Part shown: in pieces, positions 13,629-21,293 of the stretch
How positions within the stretch are numbered: position 1 is the first letter of the stretch
Layout: every line of letters starts with the position of its first letter
Assembly (NCBI GenBank): GCA_003132305.1
Contig: PKXJ01000026.1
Coordinates: 11,255 to 50,485 of the forward strand
Length of the DNA: 39,231 bases
Source: Acidimicrobiaceae bacterium
GTDB taxonomy: Bacteria; Actinomycetota; Acidimicrobiia; Acidimicrobiales; RAAP-2
Direction: 5' to 3'
Translations under genes and position numbers: made by a program
The notes under the pieces: generated by a model
The model's input: only the letters and a program-made list of their open reading frames with translations
Database searches by the model: none
What the model was told of the DNA's origin: nothing

Positions 13629-14723
13629 GTGCTGCACAAGGCGATCTCAACGATGAGTGGCGACGAGCTTTTGGCGCGACTCGAGGATCCCGAGCTTTAC
13701 CTCGTCGACGTGCGAGACCCCGACGAAGTGGTGGACTGGCAGATTCCCGGCGTGCACAACATTCCCCTGGCGTCGCTGGGATCACGCGTCGCAGAGCTAC
13801 CAGAGGATAAAGATCTCGTCCTCGTCTGCGCCAAAGGAACGAGGGCGCTTCAAGGGGCCGAACTCTTGGCCGAGCTGGGTGTCGAGAGTCGGGTGCTCGA
13901 GGGCGGCATGGCGACGTGGGGCTCAACCTACGACCAGGTCGCCGCTGACTTTGGCGGCGCGACCGTGGTCCAACTTCGTCGACGGGGCAAAGGGTGTCTG
14001 TCGTACGTCGTTGGTGCGGGCTCGAGAGCGGTAGTCATCGACCCCTCGCGCCAACTCGGTAAATATCTCGACGTCGCGCGCCACTATGGCTGGACCATCA
14101 CCCACGTCCTCGACACGCACTTGCACGCCGACCACCTCAGCGGCGCTCGCGAACTCGCGGCACAAAGTGGCGCGGCGTTGTGGCTCAATCCCGCCGATCC
14201 CTTCGAGTTTGACTTCGAAGCACTCGTGGACGGCAAGTCCATTGAACTGAAGCCCGGCGTGGACCTGCGCGTCTCGTCGGTGAGCGTGCCCGGGCACACG
14301 GAGGGCTCGACCATGTACCAACTCGGTGACGAGGCCATCTTTACTGGCGACACGCTCTTTTTAGAGAGCGTGGGGCGGCCGGACTTGGCCGATCAGGCGG
14401 AAGCCTTCGCGCACCACCTCTACCAGAGCCTCCACGAGCGGGTTTTGCCCTTGAGCGATGAAATCACGGTGTTTCCGGCGCACTTTGGCCCTGGCGTCGA
14501 GGTTCACGCTGGAAAGTTCGTAGCGCGAGAGCTCGGGTCGCTTCGTCACGCGCTGGCGGCACTGGACCTCAACGAGAGCGATTTTGTCGACTGGGCCGTA
14601 GCCAACGTCAAGGATCGGCCGGGGAACTATCAGCAGATCGTTCGAATTAATTCAGGTCAAGCCGAGATCAACGGTGACGCCGAGGACTTAGAGATGGGTC
14701 CCAATCGCTGCGCGATCGCGTAA
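13629..14723 (+). CDS. Rhodanese / metallo-beta-lactamase fusion, persulfide dioxygenase-like
   Basis: The 364-residue protein joins an N-terminal rhodanese domain (about residues 8-103, catalytic Cys67 in LVCAKGTRA) to a C-terminal metallo-beta-lactamase domain (about 110-355). The metal ligands are visible as H164-x-H166-x-D168-H169, H223, D241 and H285. This resembles ETHE1/SdoA persulfide dioxygenases, which oxidise glutathione or low-molecular-weight persulfides to sulfite, except that the rhodanese here comes first; in CstB-type fusions it follows. GTG 13629 is used; MSGD from ATG 13653 is an alternative start. Together with the divergent rhodanese it suggests a sulfide detoxification or sulfane-sulfur handling module. 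The substrate thiol is unknown. Confidence 0.9.
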   Translation: MLHKAISTMSGDELLARLEDPELYLVDVRDPDEVVDWQIPGVHNIPLASLGSRVAELPEDKDLVLVCAKGTRALQGAELLAELGVESRVLEGGMATWGSTYDQVAADFGGATVVQLRRRGKGCLSYVVGAGSRAVVIDPSRQLGKYLDVARHYGWTITHVLDTHLHADHLSGARELAAQSGAALWLNPADPFEFDFEALVDGKSIELKPGVDLRVSSVSVPGHTEGSTMYQLGDEAIFTGDTLFLESVGRPDLADQAEAFAHHLYQSLHERVLPLSDEITVFPAHFGPGVEVHAGKFVARELGSLRHALAALDLNESDFVDWAVANVKDRPGNYQQIVRINSGQAEINGDAEDLEMGPNRCAIA

Positions 14724-15292
14724 GTGCCCGCGCTGGCGATTTAACTTAGCTGCTCCTCTCGTAGTGGTTGACGTGTGTACACACTTGATGAGAATCGGGC
14801 GCGAGTACTCAAACACGACGTACTTTTCATCGTGGAGAACTCACCAGACGCGAGAGATTGTCTCATTAGTCGGGCCATAGTTTGCGCGCACGTCGGTGTT
14901 GTGAGTTGGTCAACTGGCGTGCTTCGTCGGGAAGAAAGTGAGTCCAAAGGACCGAGCAAAAGTCGCGAGAAATGGCTTAATCACTGGCTTACAATATGGT
15001 TACGATTTTTTCTGGTCTAACCAGGCACGACATGGTCATTCGCGATATATATTTTTTCGACCTTTTGACCAGGTATTTTGTGGCACCTATCGGATTTTGA
15101 TTTGTCGGCACCAACGTCTCAATTAATCCTGGGCTTCTCATCCTGGACTGTGGGCTTTACCTATACTTGGTTGTAAGGAAACGGTCGTGTCGTGTCACGA
15201 GGCGCTACCTTGTGATTGTTATCGCTGTGCCGCATGATCTAAAAAATTAAAGGTTGACGAAGTTCGACCCTTATGAATGGAGTGAATTGACC
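14724..15292. other. 569-bp leader region without a supported gene
   Basis: No convincing gene is present. A weak frame at 14775-15020 would give 81 residues with no recognisable domain. From about 14990 on the DNA becomes AT-rich, with ATATATATTTTTT at 15042-15054. The string TTTACCTATACTTGG at 15156-15170 contains a TATACT that could be a -10 box, and a similar TTACCTATGCT lies before the next secreted-protein gene. I read the stretch as promoter and a long untranslated leader for the secreted protein that starts at 15293. Confidence 0.5.
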
Positions 15293-17824
15293 ATGAATAA
15301 TCCACGACGGATACAACGCCACTTGGTAAAGGCACTTGCGGCTGGCGCTTTGCTGGCGGCTGCGGCGCTGCCAATGGCCATAGCAAGCGTTGCCGGTGCC
15401 GCGGGCGCGACCATCACCTCGGTGACTTTCGTACCAGCAGGCGCGACCCCGAACTCTTTCGGTACGGGTGCATCGGGATCGGCCAGCATTGCCGGCTCCG
15501 GTTTTGCCGCTGACGGTGGAACCTTCACGGTGACGTCGAACGCTCCTGGTTTGACCTTCTCTGGCGGCACGGAGGTTGCCGGTGGTGGGTCGATTACGGG
15601 TCTACATTTCGCATCGACCTCGGCAACGGTTGCTGGCTCGTACAGCCTTACGGTGACCGACGACAACGGCGTAGGGACGCTGGCTGGCGCCATAACTGTT
15701 GAAGGTAACGCAGGGGTGACTTCGGTTGCCCCAGCCGCTATTACTCAGGGCGCTCCTCCTGTAGCTCAATCGGTGGTCGTTACTGGCTCCGGCTTTGGTG
15801 CTGGTGCGACGGTGAACTTCGTCAACACGGCGAATGGCACAACGCTCGCGAGTTCTTCCACGAACCTATTCACTGGACCGCCCGCGGGTACGTCCACTAC
15901 TCAGGGAACTGCCACGGCCAACGTCGCCGGTACAACCTTGACTGAATTTGTCAGCCCCACCAACTCGATCACTGGAACTACGGCTACGGCTGGTACTTAC
16001 AACATTGTGGTCGTGAACTCCGACGGTGGAACGACAGTTCTTCCAGGCGCCTTCACTGTCATCGCTTACGGCGTGACTAACGTGAGTCCCTCGGCTTTGC
16101 CATTCGCCGCCACGGCGACTGACACCACAGTAACGATCGCCGGTGCTGGATTCGAGCCCGGTGCTCTCGTTAGCTTGACTGGCTGTACCTTCGGTTCTGT
16201 TGTCAGCTCATCAGTTGTCAGTGCGACCTCAATTTCCGCAGTCATCGCCGTGAACTCGGGTGTCATCGTCGTACCTCAACTGTGCGGCGTGACCGTTTTG
16301 AACCCCGATTCCGCCCACGGTGGCAATGGTGCTTCGTTTGCTCTCCCTGGTGCCCTTGGCATCGGTGAGGCCAGCACTGTTGCTGCGACCATCACCGCGA
16401 CGAGCGCCACCACGCCGATCAATCCTGGTGCCCCCGCGTCCACGGTTACGTTCACGGGTACCGGCTTTAGCCAGTACTCAACGGCTGCCGCGTTCGAAGG
16501 TACGGGCATTACACCCGCCGCTGGCGTCACCTTGAGTAACCCCTCGGGTAACACCGGAACCGCGGTCACGTTCAACGTCTCCGTCGCCGGAACTGGTGCA
16601 ACCGCTGGACCCGACAACGTGGTTATCTCGAACCAGGGTACTCCAAGCAACGCCTTCCCCGCTGGTATCTCAGTGGCCGGCCCAGTCATCACGTCACAGA
16701 CGCCTACAGGTCTCGCCGTTGGCGCCGCCGTTGGTACTGTGGTCACCTTGACCGGTACAGGCTTCACCAACACGACGTCCGGTTCTGTGGTGACAGCTGG
16801 CGGTACATTGCGCGGCATCGTCTCCTACGTGAGCGCGACGACCATGAACCTGGTCCTGACGGCTTCGCCGAATGGTGTCGACTTTACCAACCCGCCGTCG
16901 GTCGAACTCAGCCAGGTTGTTGCTGGTGGAACGGTGTCTTCGGCACCCTTCATGTTGACCATTGACCTCGCTCCATTTGTGACCAATTTGACCTACACGG
17001 TTGGCACCGATGTTGGTGTGGGCGCTACTGCCCAGCAGGTCGTCATCCACGGCTCAGGCTTCGCCGCCGGCGCCACCGTTGGCTCCTTCGTTAACGGTAA
17101 CGGCACGGCCGACCCTAACGTCACCGCCACGGTCACGAGCATCAACGCTGCCGGAACCACGATTACCGCGAGCATCGCCATCAAGACTGGTGACGTCAAC
17201 ATTGCGGACGGCTACACCGTTACCAACACTGACGGAGGCGTTGTTCACGTTCCCGCGACGCTGGTTGCGCTGGTCATCGGCGCCGGTCCCGCCATCACCG
17301 CCGTGACGCCTTCACCGGCTCTCGCGAGCGCCACGAACGCCTTCACCATTACTGGTACGGGCTTCCAGACGGGCGTGAATGTTACCGCGACGACGGATGG
17401 CACTTGTGGTTCGGCAACGGTCGTGAGCGCCACGTCGATCACGGTCTCCTGCACCCTCGGTGCTCTTCAGACAACGGCAGTCAGCTTGGTTGTTACCAAC
17501 GTTGACGGTGGCTCCGCCACCTCGCTGCCCGTCTTGACGCCGTCGACCACGAAGCCACCAGCGCCCTTCAGGGTGACTGGTGTTCACGGTCACGCTGTTG
17601 CCGGTAGGACAGTGACGTTGACGATCTCTGGTACTGGTTTCTACGGCCAGCCAAAGATCACCAGCAGCGCTGCTGGTACGAAGGCCAAGGTTTCCAAGGA
17701 CAGTGGCAAGTTGCTCACCGTCCGCGTGACGACCAAGTCAACGACCAAGCCTCGCAAGTACACGTTCACCGTTCGCTTGGCGAATGGCAAGCAGGGTAGG
17801 GCGAACTACTCAGTCGTAAAGTAA
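15293..17824 (+). CDS. Secreted IPT/TIG-repeat surface protein
   Basis: I start at ATG 15293, which follows GGAG at 15279-15282 and opens directly with a signal peptide (basic MNNPRRIQRH, a hydrophobic core to about residue 33, then GAAGA). The 843-residue protein consists of about eight beta-sandwich repeats of IPT/TIG type, each marked by a GTGF, GSGF or GAGF core. No transmembrane helix or LPXTG sorting motif ends the chain. The last 85 residues (nucleotides 17567-17821) match the C-terminus of the next secreted protein at about 39 percent identity and probably form a shared module. Codon choice is less GC-rich than in the housekeeping genes nearby, with many GGT and ACT. Low similarity to any enzyme; a cell-surface or S-layer-like structural role is an inference. 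Confidence 0.8.
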   Translation: MNNPRRIQRHLVKALAAGALLAAAALPMAIASVAGAAGATITSVTFVPAGATPNSFGTGASGSASIAGSGFAADGGTFTVTSNAPGLTFSGGTEVAGGGSITGLHFASTSATVAGSYSLTVTDDNGVGTLAGAITVEGNAGVTSVAPAAITQGAPPVAQSVVVTGSGFGAGATVNFVNTANGTTLASSSTNLFTGPPAGTSTTQGTATANVAGTTLTEFVSPTNSITGTTATAGTYNIVVVNSDGGTTVLPGAFTVIAYGVTNVSPSALPFAATATDTTVTIAGAGFEPGALVSLTGCTFGSVVSSSVVSATSISAVIAVNSGVIVVPQLCGVTVLNPDSAHGGNGASFALPGALGIGEASTVAATITATSATTPINPGAPASTVTFTGTGFSQYSTAAAFEGTGITPAAGVTLSNPSGNTGTAVTFNVSVAGTGATAGPDNVVISNQGTPSNAFPAGISVAGPVITSQTPTGLAVGAAVGTVVTLTGTGFTNTTSGSVVTAGGTLRGIVSYVSATTMNLVLTASPNGVDFTNPPSVELSQVVAGGTVSSAPFMLTIDLAPFVTNLTYTVGTDVGVGATAQQVVIHGSGFAAGATVGSFVNGNGTADPNVTATVTSINAAGTTITASIAIKTGDVNIADGYTVTNTDGGVVHVPATLVALVIGAGPAITAVTPSPALASATNAFTITGTGFQTGVNVTATTDGTCGSATVVSATSITVSCTLGALQTTAVSLVVTNVDGGSATSLPVLTPSTTKPPAPFRVTGVHGHAVAGRTVTLTISGTGFYGQPKITSSAAGTKAKVSKDSGKLLTVRVTTKSTTKPRKYTFTVRLANGKQGRANYSVVK

Positions 17825-17843
17825 CTCACTCCAAGTAGTGCAT

Positions 17844-17877
17844 AAGGAAGGCCCCCTCGAAAGAGGGGGCCTTCCTT
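17844..17877 (+). terminator. Rho-independent terminator after the IPT-repeat gene
   Basis: A perfect 15-bp inverted repeat, AAGGAAGGCCCCCTC, with a four-base GAAA loop, is followed by ATTTTC. It starts 20 bp after the stop codon. Such a strong hairpin suggests a highly transcribed single gene. Confidence 0.9.
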
Positions 17878-18081
17878 ATTTTCTCGAGAGTTCGTTTTGC
17901 GGATCAGCAAAGTCGATGGGCGCAACACATTTTGGTTTTTGTGTAGAGATTGTTGAAACGTCGATAATGCTCGTGTCGCTCGCAAATCGCCTACGAGCAC
18001 TCGCGTGTTGAAGCCATCGTGCAGTGGTTTCCCGACAGGGTGCACAAAAATTCGCGAACTGTAACACAACGGCAAAGGGAA

Positions 18082-18109
18082 TTGCACTCTTGCTTACCTA
18101 TGCTGTACT
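18082..18109 (+). promoter_or_regulatory. Candidate promoter for the second secreted-protein gene
   Basis: TTGCAC (18082-18087) and TGTACT (18104-18109) are separated by 16 bp, and a TGC precedes the second box as in extended -10 promoters. It lies 65 bp before the ATG. The intergenic interval 17881-18173 is otherwise without a supported gene. The same TTACCTATRCT string found before the upstream gene (15157-15167) occurs here at 18094-18104. The assignment is by motif only. Confidence 0.4.
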
Positions 18110-18173
18110 TAGTACCCATTAGGCACATGTTTAGGTATTCGAACCTGACGGGCAGTGCAAAGGCGGAAATCCC

Positions 18174-20087
18174 ATGAAGAACTTAGTGAGCCGTAAAGAG
18201 GGTGGGCGATTCCTTCGATCATCGTTGAAGTCGGTCATGGCCATTGGGGCGACGTCGGCTCTCATGGTGACCGGACTGGCGTTCGTGGCCGCGTCGCCAG
18301 CGTCGGCGGCGGGTGCGCCTAACAGGCTGCTCTATTCAACGTTGCCTCCAACGACGGCCAACGCGGGATCTCCACTCACGAGTTTCGGGGTTTCTGTCGA
18401 TGACAACACCCCCGCCGTAATTACGTCTGGTCCCGGCTCGACGGATACCATTGCCATCACTTCGAACTGCACGCTTACTGGAACTACGTCCGTAGCGGCG
18501 GTTGCTGGAATAGCAACGTTCAACGCGGTCACCATCACGACGGGCACGAACTGTACGCTCACTGCAGCCGACGTCTCGACGGGTGGTGTTACCACCGTGA
18601 CGAGTCCGGCGATAACCGTCACTCCAGCCGCGGCTGTCAAGCTCGCCTTTTCAACGGCCCCGCCTACAGCAGCCACGATCGGCGTGGCGATGGGAACGTT
18701 CAAAGTCTCTGTTGAGGACCAGTACGGAAACGTCAGAGCGACAGGCACCGGATCGGGGGACACTATTGTGGTAACGTCGTCGGCCGGATGCACTTTCAGT
18801 GTCGCCGCTAGCGCCGTAGCTGGCACCGGTGTGGCCACCTTCACGGGCGTCACCTTCACCGCGGGCACTTCAAGCTGCACTTTGACCGCGTCAGATACAA
18901 CAGCTGGCGATACTGGTTTCACTGTTGCGGTCGCGCCGGTGAATGTCGCCTCGAACACTCCTACGAAACTTGGATTTTCGACTGAACCGCCCACCAGCGC
19001 TGTTGCCGGAAGCGTCCTGGCTCCCTTCGCCGTTTCGGTCGAGGAGAGCAATGGCGTGCCAATTACCTCTGGAACTGGATCAACTGACGGGGTCGTTCTG
19101 ACGTCGTCGTGCACGCTGTCGGGTACCTTGACGGCAACAGCCGTCGGCGGTGTCGCCACGTTCACCACGGTCACCATCAAAACGGGAACCGCTTGCGTGT
19201 TGGTCGCCACGGACATAACGAGAACCCTCGCGACGGGTTCCAGCACGACGGTAAACGTCCTCGCGGGTGCCCCGACGCAAGTCGCCTTTTCGGTCGCTCC
19301 GCCTGCCAGCGTCACCACTGCTAGTTCCGTAGTGCCGACGTTTGCGGTTTCCGTCGAAGACGTCAACGGCAACGTGGTGACCACGGGAACCGGATCGACG
19401 GACACTATCGTGATCACGTCGACGTGCACTCTTGGTGGAACCACGTCAGTCATTGGCGTCGCCGGCGTGGCGACCTTCAGTGCCCTCACCATCAACGTGA
19501 CGGGAACCTGCGTGCTGACGGCCACGGACTCCACCAGAACACTCACCACCGCGGCACACACCACGGCGGTCGGTACACCCCAAGCAACGGTGACGGTGAG
19601 AACGCTTAAGGGAAGTGTGGGAACTACACTCAGGCTTTCGATCGCCGGAGGAACTGGTACCGGTGCGGTGACCTGGACCCTCGCGGCGGGGTCGTCAGCT
19701 GGTTGCAGTGTGTCGGGAAATGAATTGACCGCCCGGAGGGCGGGTGCATGCACCGTGACCTCGACGAAAGCCGGCGATACCACCCACCAGCCTGCTTCAT
19801 CAGCGGCGACGAAGGTGACGTTCGTACTACCTCTGAAGGCCATCCGCGTCATTGGCGCGGTGGTCGCTGGACGGACTTCGAGGATCACGATTACGGGCAC
19901 GGGCTTTAGTGGTCGACCCCGGATCATCGCCAACGTCGCGGGTGTCAGCGCCAGAGTGACCGGCGACACGGGTCGGGCACTCAAGGTGCTCGTCACCGTC
20001 AGGTCCGGTGTACGGACGGGTGTTCATACCTTCACGGTCATCCTGAGTACCGGTAAGCGGACCTCAGTGAAGTTCCACCTGATCTAA
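18174..20087 (+). CDS. Secreted Ig-like repeat protein with shared C-terminal domain
   Basis: This 637-residue protein has an N-terminal signal peptide ending near SPASAAG (about residue 46). Four repeats of about 95 residues follow, each opening with a pattern like LxFSTxPPT and FxVSVEDxxGN and each holding a pair of cysteines (for example NCTLTG...NCTLTA) that could form a disulfide. A fifth Ig-like domain lies at about residues 470-555, followed by the 80-residue C-terminal domain shared with the upstream IPT-repeat protein. No transmembrane anchor or sorting motif is seen. It lies 349 bp behind the first secreted gene with its own promoter candidate and terminator, so it is probably an independent unit. 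Function is unknown; surface layer or adhesion are possibilities. Confidence 0.8.
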   Translation: MKNLVSRKEGGRFLRSSLKSVMAIGATSALMVTGLAFVAASPASAAGAPNRLLYSTLPPTTANAGSPLTSFGVSVDDNTPAVITSGPGSTDTIAITSNCTLTGTTSVAAVAGIATFNAVTITTGTNCTLTAADVSTGGVTTVTSPAITVTPAAAVKLAFSTAPPTAATIGVAMGTFKVSVEDQYGNVRATGTGSGDTIVVTSSAGCTFSVAASAVAGTGVATFTGVTFTAGTSSCTLTASDTTAGDTGFTVAVAPVNVASNTPTKLGFSTEPPTSAVAGSVLAPFAVSVEESNGVPITSGTGSTDGVVLTSSCTLSGTLTATAVGGVATFTTVTIKTGTACVLVATDITRTLATGSSTTVNVLAGAPTQVAFSVAPPASVTTASSVVPTFAVSVEDVNGNVVTTGTGSTDTIVITSTCTLGGTTSVIGVAGVATFSALTINVTGTCVLTATDSTRTLTTAAHTTAVGTPQATVTVRTLKGSVGTTLRLSIAGGTGTGAVTWTLAAGSSAGCSVSGNELTARRAGACTVTSTKAGDTTHQPASSAATKVTFVLPLKAIRVIGAVVAGRTSRITITGTGFSGRPRIIANVAGVSARVTGDTGRALKVLVTVRSGVRTGVHTFTVILSTGKRTSVKFHLI

Positions 20088-20106: not shown

Positions 20107-20144
20107 ATGTAGATGTCCCCTTCTTTGGAAGGGGACATCTACAT
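20107..20144 (+). terminator. Rho-independent terminator after the Ig-like repeat gene
   Basis: A perfect 17-bp inverted repeat, ATGTAGATGTCCCCTTC, with a TTTG loop, is followed by TTCTGAG and a T-rich stretch. It begins 19 bp after the stop codon. It may also stop transcripts from the convergent gene at 20187, since the arms are symmetric. Confidence 0.85.
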
Positions 20145-20186
20145 TTCTGAGATCGTTTTCTCTACGTTCGAGCTAAGAAGAATCGC

Positions 20187-21293
20187 TTAGTTCGCGCCGC
20201 CCAGTGACCACGTCGTTCCTTCGGGGCTGTCCTGGACGTCAATGCCCGCTTTGATGAGAGCGTCTCGAAGCTCGTCGGCGAGTTCATACTGTGCGTTGGC
20301 TCGCGCGGTCACTCGGGCGCTGAGGATACCTTCGACGAGCGGGGTGGGGTCGATGAAGCCTTCGCCTCCGGTGGTGGCGAGTTGCACCAGTTGCGCCAGC
20401 GCCTCGAGGCCGCGCTCACCGCCCGTCGCGGCGATCTCTCCCAACTCGACTGGTCGACTCGTCGCTGGTGTGGGCACGCTCGCCGCGGGTCGAGTCCGTG
20501 CAGGCACGAGCGTGCGAAGAGCAGCAAGACTCGTGGTCGTGGCGTTGGCGAGGACGGTGGTCTCGCCCCCGAGGCGCCAGTAGCCGCTCGAGCGGCCCTT
20601 CACCGAGACGGTATCGCTCGAGAGATCGAGAATCAGGGCCGTGTGTTCGTCGACGCCGAGCGTGGCGACACCCTCGGGGAGTTGGCCCTCGAGTTCGAGC
20701 AGTCGTTTTTCACCGAGGTAGCAGAACCTCGTGTCGTAGTTGCCCCCTTCGTTGTTGTCGAAGTGGGGAATGACCACGCAACTCAGTCCGAATGCCGCGA
20801 GCACGTTCAGTCCGTCACGCCACCGAGGTGCTTCGACACCCACTTTGTAGACCTCGTAGATGGGCGCCGTGTAGGCGCCGAGGGTGAGCGCCGCCGCGGA
20901 GGCGAAACAGACGGTGCCACCGTGGTCGAGCACCTCGAGTAGATCGTCGCCGAAGTGCAGCGGCGACCACTGTGAGAGCGCGTAGGTCGGACTACCGGGT
21001 CCGGCGAAGACGTAGTTGGCTTGTCGAACCTGTTGCTTGAAGAGGGTGCGTTCGAGTTCGCTGGCTTTGACGAAGGAGGAAAAGTGCAGCGTCGTGAGGG
21101 TGGTCTGCAGGGAGATTTTGAAGTACTCCTCGAGCTTCTCGCTCATCTGGGGGACGTTCAGTTGGAAGCCGTAGGCGGTGTCGAGATTGACCGCGTTGAG
21201 CGCAGTGATCGGTGCCAAAACTTCGCGGTGCACCTTGGTCATTCCCGGGGCCGTCTCACCCGAACCAAGTAACGCGAGGACGCCTCTGGACAT
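20187..21293 (-). CDS. Peptidase S51-like protein with CysRS-type C-terminal tail
   Basis: The 368-residue protein opens with GVLALLGSGETAPGM and has a class-I glutamine-amidotransferase-like fold of the peptidase S51/cyanophycinase type (about residues 1-235). Landmarks are FAGPGSPTYAL, a probable nucleophile Ser132 in FASAAAL, and VIPHFDNNEGG with candidate His177. Toward the C-terminus (about 330-366) it has ANAQYELADELRDALIKAGI followed by DSPEGTTW, which closely resembles the tail of cysteinyl-tRNA synthetases, and cysS in this window ends in the same way. I recall homologues carrying misleading 'cysteinyl-tRNA synthetase' names. The substrate is unknown. The gene converges on the secreted-protein gene and is not in an operon. 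Confidence 0.78.
   Translation of the reverse strand: MSRGVLALLGSGETAPGMTKVHREVLAPITALNAVNLDTAYGFQLNVPQMSEKLEEYFKISLQTTLTTLHFSSFVKASELERTLFKQQVRQANYVFAGPGSPTYALSQWSPLHFGDDLLEVLDHGGTVCFASAAALTLGAYTAPIYEVYKVGVEAPRWRDGLNVLAAFGLSCVVIPHFDNNEGGNYDTRFCYLGEKRLLELEGQLPEGVATLGVDEHTALILDLSSDTVSVKGRSSGYWRLGGETTVLANATTTSLAALRTLVPARTRPAASVPTPATSRPVELGEIAATGGERGLEALAQLVQLATTGGEGFIDPTPLVEGILSARVTARANAQYELADELRDALIKAGIDVQDSPEGTTWSLGGAN

Follow-up and report, generated by a model that had tools for sequence, protein, structure and literature searches.

A cationic C-terminal domain of predicted IPT fold on unlike exported proteins of one acidimicrobial genus, a candidate cell-wall anchor

Two neighbouring genes of an Acidimicrobiaceae bacterium encode exported-looking repeat proteins which are unlike in their upstream parts and end in the same domain (Table 1), and this raises the question of what the shared terminus does. 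The genes lie in a stretch of 39,231 nucleotides (contig PKXJ01000026.1), referred to here as the window. A sequence-only reading of this DNA had taken the two C-termini to be homologous at about 39 percent identity (27 of 69 ungapped positions). They are now found to align without gaps, with 35 of 85 residues identical and a two-sequence E value of 4e-21, and the GTGFxGxP core and TFTVxLxxGK strand that the reading picked out are present in both. It had also assigned the upstream repeats to different families, and this is borne out: the first protein contains four TIG stretches and matches NF058597, while the second has no Pfam or NCBIfam match at E ≤ 1. As it had further reported, the last 60 residues of both proteins contain neither an LPXTG-like motif nor a hydrophobic tail. 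The shared domain is referred to below as the CTD.

Table 1. Positions in the window of the two genes, their shared C-terminal domain and the flanking genes.
Feature	Position	Strand	Basis or remark
IPT/TIG-array passenger ORF (TIG, NF058597)	15254..17824	+	ORF list, Pfam, NCBIfam
IPT/TIG-array passenger start	ATG at 15293		signal-peptide-like, MNNPRRIQRHLVKALAAG...
Ig-like repeat passenger ORF	18174..20087	+	signal-peptide-like start; no Pfam or NCBIfam match
CTD (C-terminal cationic domain of predicted IPT fold) copy 1, IPT-repeat protein	17567..17821	+	last 85 codons; stop 17822-17824
CTD copy 2, Ig-like repeat protein	19824..20084	+	last 87 codons; stop 20085-20087
Rhodanese + MBL-fold gene, left flank	13629..14723	+	name read from sequence
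S51-peptidase-like gene, right flank	20187..21293	-	name read from sequence

The window's own genome (2.9 Mb) was searched with a two-row profile, which gave seven matches, the weakest at E 5e-13. Their ends lie 0, 0, 2, 2, 3, 1 and 13 residues from the stop, and the parts upstream of them look unlike each other. A 32-row alignment (A2) was then made from loci L007 to L035 and the window pair, leaving out the weak L024 and L025. Searched with this alignment at E ≤ 1e-6, 78 of the 99 genomes in the window's genus contain the CTD (278 matches), commonly in several copies and in up to eight per genome. The 73 genomes from the 20 other genera of the family gave one weak match (G179, 2.1e-7). No CTD was found outside the window's genus in a sample of the class (395 genomes, 183 genera) or of the phylum (396 genomes, 236 genera), where the 12 and 3 matching genomes respectively all belong to that genus; these two runs scored at most 13 first-look candidates per genome, so that weak copies may be missed. 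The relatives at the 41 loci studied are metagenome-assembled genomes titled Acidimicrobiaceae, Acidimicrobiales, Actinomycetes or Actinomycetota, many of them from palsa, bog or fen. Two are titled Acidobacteria, and are perhaps misassigned. No description of the CTD was found in the literature on TIG-domain anchors or on IPT surface proteins of Acidimicrobiia, in a search mostly of open-access papers.

The structure predicted for the CTD by AlphaFold2 is a confident all-β domain (pLDDT 93.6). Its fold matches include domains of quinohemoprotein amine dehydrogenase, CGTase, MET, plexin, EBF and NFAT (Z 9-12). Chains named IPT or TIG match at Z 8.5-10.2 with 83-92 residues aligned. Individual matches in this fold group are the EBF3 IPT domain (Z 10.2, rmsd 2.5, 84 aligned), MET (Z 10.6, 2.7, 87) and NFAT1 (Z 9.5, 2.6, 87). 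The CTD shares the GTGF core, and on the model its predicted fold is IPT/TIG. CWB2 and SLAP domains do not occur in the list of fold matches, an absence which excludes nothing, and a search of the PDB by sequence gave no credible relatives of the CTD. In sequence the domain stands apart from PF01833: the CTD scores 17.8-18.1 bits (18.1 and 18.0 for the two window copies), under the Pfam gathering cut-off of 20.9, and five of the 32 members match at E ≤ 0.01 (best 0.0033). It differs from ordinary IPT/TIG domains also in being C-terminal and strongly basic.

Per 85 residues, the net charge is +10.0 (sd 3.0) for the CTD against -1.4 (sd 1.9) for the part upstream, with the CTD higher in 90 of 90 pairs, in counts which ignore common descent. 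As a control, 14 further exported-like frames from the same loci, identified by a simple score and some of them maybe not real genes, carry on average +1.9 in their final 85 residues (range -10 to +13), compared to +10.6 for 23 frames with a CTD. Lysine or arginine occupies model positions 21, 37 and 60 in 83, 80 and 76 percent of copies, and position 52 is acidic in 86 percent.

A single cysteine is found at position 84 in 42 copies. This might suggest an assembly module, in which CTDs associate by strand swap or by a disulphide at Cys-84 into fibres or a layer, and S-layer SbsC domains do occur among the fold matches. However, 60 of 103 copies have no cysteine and the S-layer matches are no better than the other Ig-like ones, and we regard assembly as scarcely probable.

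The proteins which carry the CTD are varied, and we call their upstream parts passengers. The sequence-only reading had proposed searching with a profile for occurrence on exported proteins: a hydrophobic stretch of signal-peptide type lies near a possible start in 55 of 61 complete non-redundant frames, as called by a simple hydrophobicity score rather than a trained predictor, with the other six undecided. A Pfam and NCBIfam scan of 54 of the 61 found TIG in 14, NF058597 in 18 and fn3 in 8, and single cases of RCC1, FG-GAP, a YncE/lactonase propeller, Big_3_5, He_PIG, neocarzinostatin and others. NF058597 (choice-of-anchor Z) describes the repeats of the first window protein; against this model the CTD in the window scores 22.4, below the cut-off of 30. 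Single linkage of 93 upstream parts gave eight groups, of sizes 36, 28, 17, 7, 2, 1, 1 and 1, the last (L064) being a doubtful frame. In 78 of the 93 cases the nearest CTD below 90 percent identity belongs to the same passenger group, which implies that inheritance is mostly vertical; some exchange may have occurred. The last 60 residues were screened in 63 frames (the 61 and the two window proteins): none has an LPXTG-like motif, and the two frames that passed the hydrophobicity limit did so both times within a CTD strand. The window's genome also encodes a secreted-like protein of about 125 residues which is nearly CTD alone (L007; L227 7974-8432). Such a protein could compete for binding sites or cap them.

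These results bear on the possibility that the CTD is an ordinary terminal TIG cap which has been copied along with gene ends and has no sorting or binding role of its own. The sequence-only reading had set the case of an ordinary IPT repeat against its own proposal. In fold the CTD is indeed predicted to be a plain IPT/TIG domain; in position, charge and passengers it is unlike an ordinary IPT repeat. A mere cap would fit the mostly vertical descent, and the mid-protein matches of the CTD profile, which are weak and fall on TIG-like repeats. It fits less well with the CTDs on passengers that have no TIG match at all, with the domain's own conserved positions (K/R, D and GFYGxP), or with a secreted-like protein that holds little else. 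The charge, too, sets the CTD apart: over 26 weak matches of TIG-like kind, at 8-40 bits, with duplicates between loci kept and a few terminal ones among them, it averages +2.5 (sd 5.3). We therefore consider a cap without function decidedly improbable.

The CTD lies almost always at the very end of the protein. Among 103 distinct strong copies (at least 40 bits, taken among the matches listed, 32 of them profile rows), the number of residues left before the stop is 0 in 34, 1 in 51, 2 in 9, 3 in 2, and 6 and 10 in one each, so that the domain ends within two residues of the stop in 94 and within ten in 98. The expectation that profile matches would be C-terminal is thereby confirmed for strong copies, although the loci were chosen mainly for best matches and weaker copies are less covered. 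Of the five exceptions, three are inner copies in tandem doublets at the C-terminus (L050, L070, L233), and the other two have C-terminal extensions of 48 (L064) and 24 (L228) residues. Among the 98 near-terminal copies 35 end in R, 32 in K and 3 in H, and 80 have one of these three residues at the last or next-to-last position.

Such a strict position would be expected of a sorting signal read by dedicated machinery, analogous to the type IX secretion (T9SS) C-terminal domain: a terminal Ig-like domain would be recognised after Sec export, and the protein then moved or processed. The basic last residue (70 of 98), the many unrelated cargoes and the restriction to one genus all agree with this. 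The tandem doublets and the 24- and 48-residue extensions do not, and nor does the gene content: after clustering of 429 ORFs from 41 loci and the window, no shared neighbouring machinery was found near the genes examined. The neighbours that do recur (rhodanese/MBL, S51-like, valS and gltX) look like plain synteny, and the loci around the near-solo CTD gene and others, of which four of ten stretches were compared, had nothing obvious in common. NCBIfam holds T9SS sorting-domain models, and none of these was among the 18 families matched by the 32 CTD members at E ≤ 1. T9SS is an outer-membrane system of Bacteroidota. Its signal is likewise a conserved, C-terminal, Ig-like domain on many cargoes (PMC4804311). 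On this evidence a sorting signal is unlikely.

Extreme C-terminal position is also a hallmark of the 'rightmost' PxKF domain NF038114, seen in two PxKF records. The best CTD scores 20.6 bits against the cut-off of 35 for this model, however, and three of the 32 members match it at E ≤ 1. Comparison of the profiles with hhalign gave a probability of 0.8 percent on 18 columns, with a PxKF profile of only three rows, and the three PxKF domains are near-neutral in charge. Judged by score and profile comparison, the CTD is not a member of this family. A functional parallel may be SlpA of Lactobacillus, whose positively charged C-terminal domain binds teichoic acid in the wall (PMC11181022). SlpA differs in having two motifs in tandem, and no Pfam match to the Lactobacillus SLAP/TAB domain was found in the 32 CTD members at E ≤ 0.01, where three families were matched.

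The most telling result is that one passenger occurs with two different terminal modules. This passenger, A5, is an exported domain starting GYDISFPQC (GYDISFPQC...WWLDVETGN; L234 4204-4953 and homologues) which has no Pfam match. All six copies in four CTD genomes have A5 and the CTD in one open frame. A profile of A5 gave 22 matches, of which 16 are outside these four genomes, and 15 of the 16 were read. Locus L267, which has a stop inside, was left out. Three of the 15, in G158, G161 and G183, which belong to two sister genera, match at E 6e-44 to 2e-42; in these, A5 is followed by some 300-390 residues that include three CWB2 stretches (Pfam E 3e-17, 3e-21 and 2e-38). The CTD is absent from these three proteins, and the three genomes gave no CTD match either. 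Most of the other 12 stop at the passenger with no added module; examples are those of G083, G070, G024 and G002, as well as additional copies in G161 and G158. The one in G102 runs into an fn3-like part and off the end of the stretch examined. The swap thus concerns one passenger family only. A5 may resemble GH25-type hydrolases (DxE motif). A PDB search found no sequence relatives of the A5-type protein, with A5 itself matching only at chance level, and an AlphaFold2 model of A5 was set aside (pLDDT 42).

In Clostridioides difficile, triplets of CWB2 (PF04122) bind the anionic polymer PSII and hold proteins on the wall (PMC4973711). CWB2 and the CTD are preceded by the same passenger family, but they are unrelated in sequence (no CWB2 match in the 32 CTD members at E ≤ 0.01), and CWB2 consists of three repeats which may be N-terminal, whereas the CTD is mostly single. 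As CWB2 can be N-terminal, strict terminality is not required of a pure wall binder, which counts against reading the CTD as an anchor. PF04122 was found in 28 of 172 genomes of the family, comprising 25 of 73 in other genera and, weakly, 3 of 99 in the window's genus, with none in the window's own genome. At the cut-off used it is present in 5 of the 20 other genera and absent from 15, and reaches 31 matches per genome. Three genera (g28, g30, g37) have very many CWB2 repeats, with 8 to 31 matches per genome among the matches listed.

We hold at about even confidence that the CTD is a C-terminal, non-covalent cell-wall anchor derived from a TIG domain. The sequence-only reading had expected an anchoring, secretion or assembly signal of a terminal module shared by unlike exported proteins; the shared module stands, and we infer anchoring, rather than export or assembly, on the strength of the charge and of the CWB2 swap seen for one passenger family. 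Passengers would be exported by the general route, consistent with their computed signal-peptide-like starts. The last 85 or so residues are predicted to fold as a small IPT/TIG β-sandwich with about ten net positive charges, and these charges, including K/R at 21, 37 and 60, may bind an anionic cell-wall polymer, so that the CTD would tether to the cell a range of passengers resembling stalks, propellers or enzymes. In the window's genus it would take the role played in two sister genera by CWB2 triplets, as computed for one passenger family.

A strongly cationic domain could also face outwards as an adhesive tip, binding humic matter, DNA, mineral, other cells or similar polyanions while the protein is otherwise held or released. 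The stalk-like repeats upstream of the CTD would suit such a role, as would the origin of the relatives' records in palsa, bog and fen samples. Against it, neither window protein was seen to have a further known anchor, propeller-like passengers bear the CTD too, and the CWB2 swap points to the wall. An adhesive tip is rather unlikely. If the CTD is instead a wall anchor, it would mark the surface proteins of a mostly uncultured lineage, and the finding of the same passenger with different terminal modules in related bacteria makes the swap directly testable. A large survey of fibrillar adhesins recovered a known anchor in only 846 of 1,666 proteins, for which anchor domains as yet unrecognised were given as one possible reason (PMC9210967).

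Strong sortase and strong CTD do not occur together in the window's genus. Strong PF04203 matches (E < 1e-25) occur in 12 members of the window's genus and in many sister-genus genomes. Of the members of that genus, none of the 71 whose CTD is strong (E < 1e-12) has such a match, against 12 of the other 28 (Fisher 3e-8, with descent ignored and both E-value limits set after the tables had been seen). A tree was built from valS with 84 tips, of which 68 are from the window's genus. A basal grade of 12 tips includes 11 with strong sortase and one, G013, without, while strong sortase is missing throughout a crown group of 56 tips, 46 of which have a strong CTD; the rerooted tree gives no support value for this crown node. 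The pattern therefore sits on one branch and represents a single event, and is only suggestive that the CTD would have spread in the part of the genus lacking strong sortase. Speaking against a causal link, 49 of the 71 strong-CTD genomes, the window's own among them, have a weaker sortase, and strong sortase is also absent from genomes that have no CTD (G013, and G180, G154, G149, G157, G158 and G161 of sister genera). Three basal members with strong sortase (G016, G062 and G114; loci L102, L104 and L107) have a diverged terminal TIG domain ending KGVTIK, which the CTD profile matches at E 8e-8 to 7e-7. This is possibly the ancestral form of the CTD.

If the CTD had directly replaced sortase signals, LPXTG tails would be looked for on the corresponding proteins of genomes without it. 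A set of 28 genomes chosen because they lack a strong CTD has 17 NF058597 matches, in eight of them, and taking the longest frame at each locus, some of them incomplete, no LPXTG tail was found in the C-termini of 14 loci from CTD-poor or sister genomes. Direct replacement of sortase signals is therefore unsupported, and as the sole cause it finds no support beyond the one branch. A fuller version would have a TIG domain made into a general C-terminal address label after loss of the main sortase, and read by dedicated, undescribed display machinery in a Gram-positive-type envelope; we consider this quite improbable.

Within the window, the two genes share a further feature: by eye, inverted repeats followed by T-containing stretches are seen 3' of both (17845-17882 and 20109-20148). 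A terminator scan of the gene pair found two candidates compared to 3.0 in shuffled sequence, and so gives no support for terminators. The last 40 or so residues of the S51-peptidase-like protein resemble what we take to be a cysteinyl-tRNA synthetase tail. The flanking genes were compared in 20 stretches taken from genomes whose CTD is weak or absent. An S51-like gene without a rhodanese gene beside it occurs in eight of these stretches, no S51-like gene was seen in another six, and none of the 20 contains an IPT or Ig-like match at E ≤ 1e-6. In the remaining six (G064, G011, G019, G101, G103 and G104) the rhodanese/MBL and S51-like genes lie 13-23 bases apart, measured between alignment ends. 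The flanks thus adjoin at an empty site in six genomes that lack the CTD there, and the window pair appears to be gained and lost as one unit.
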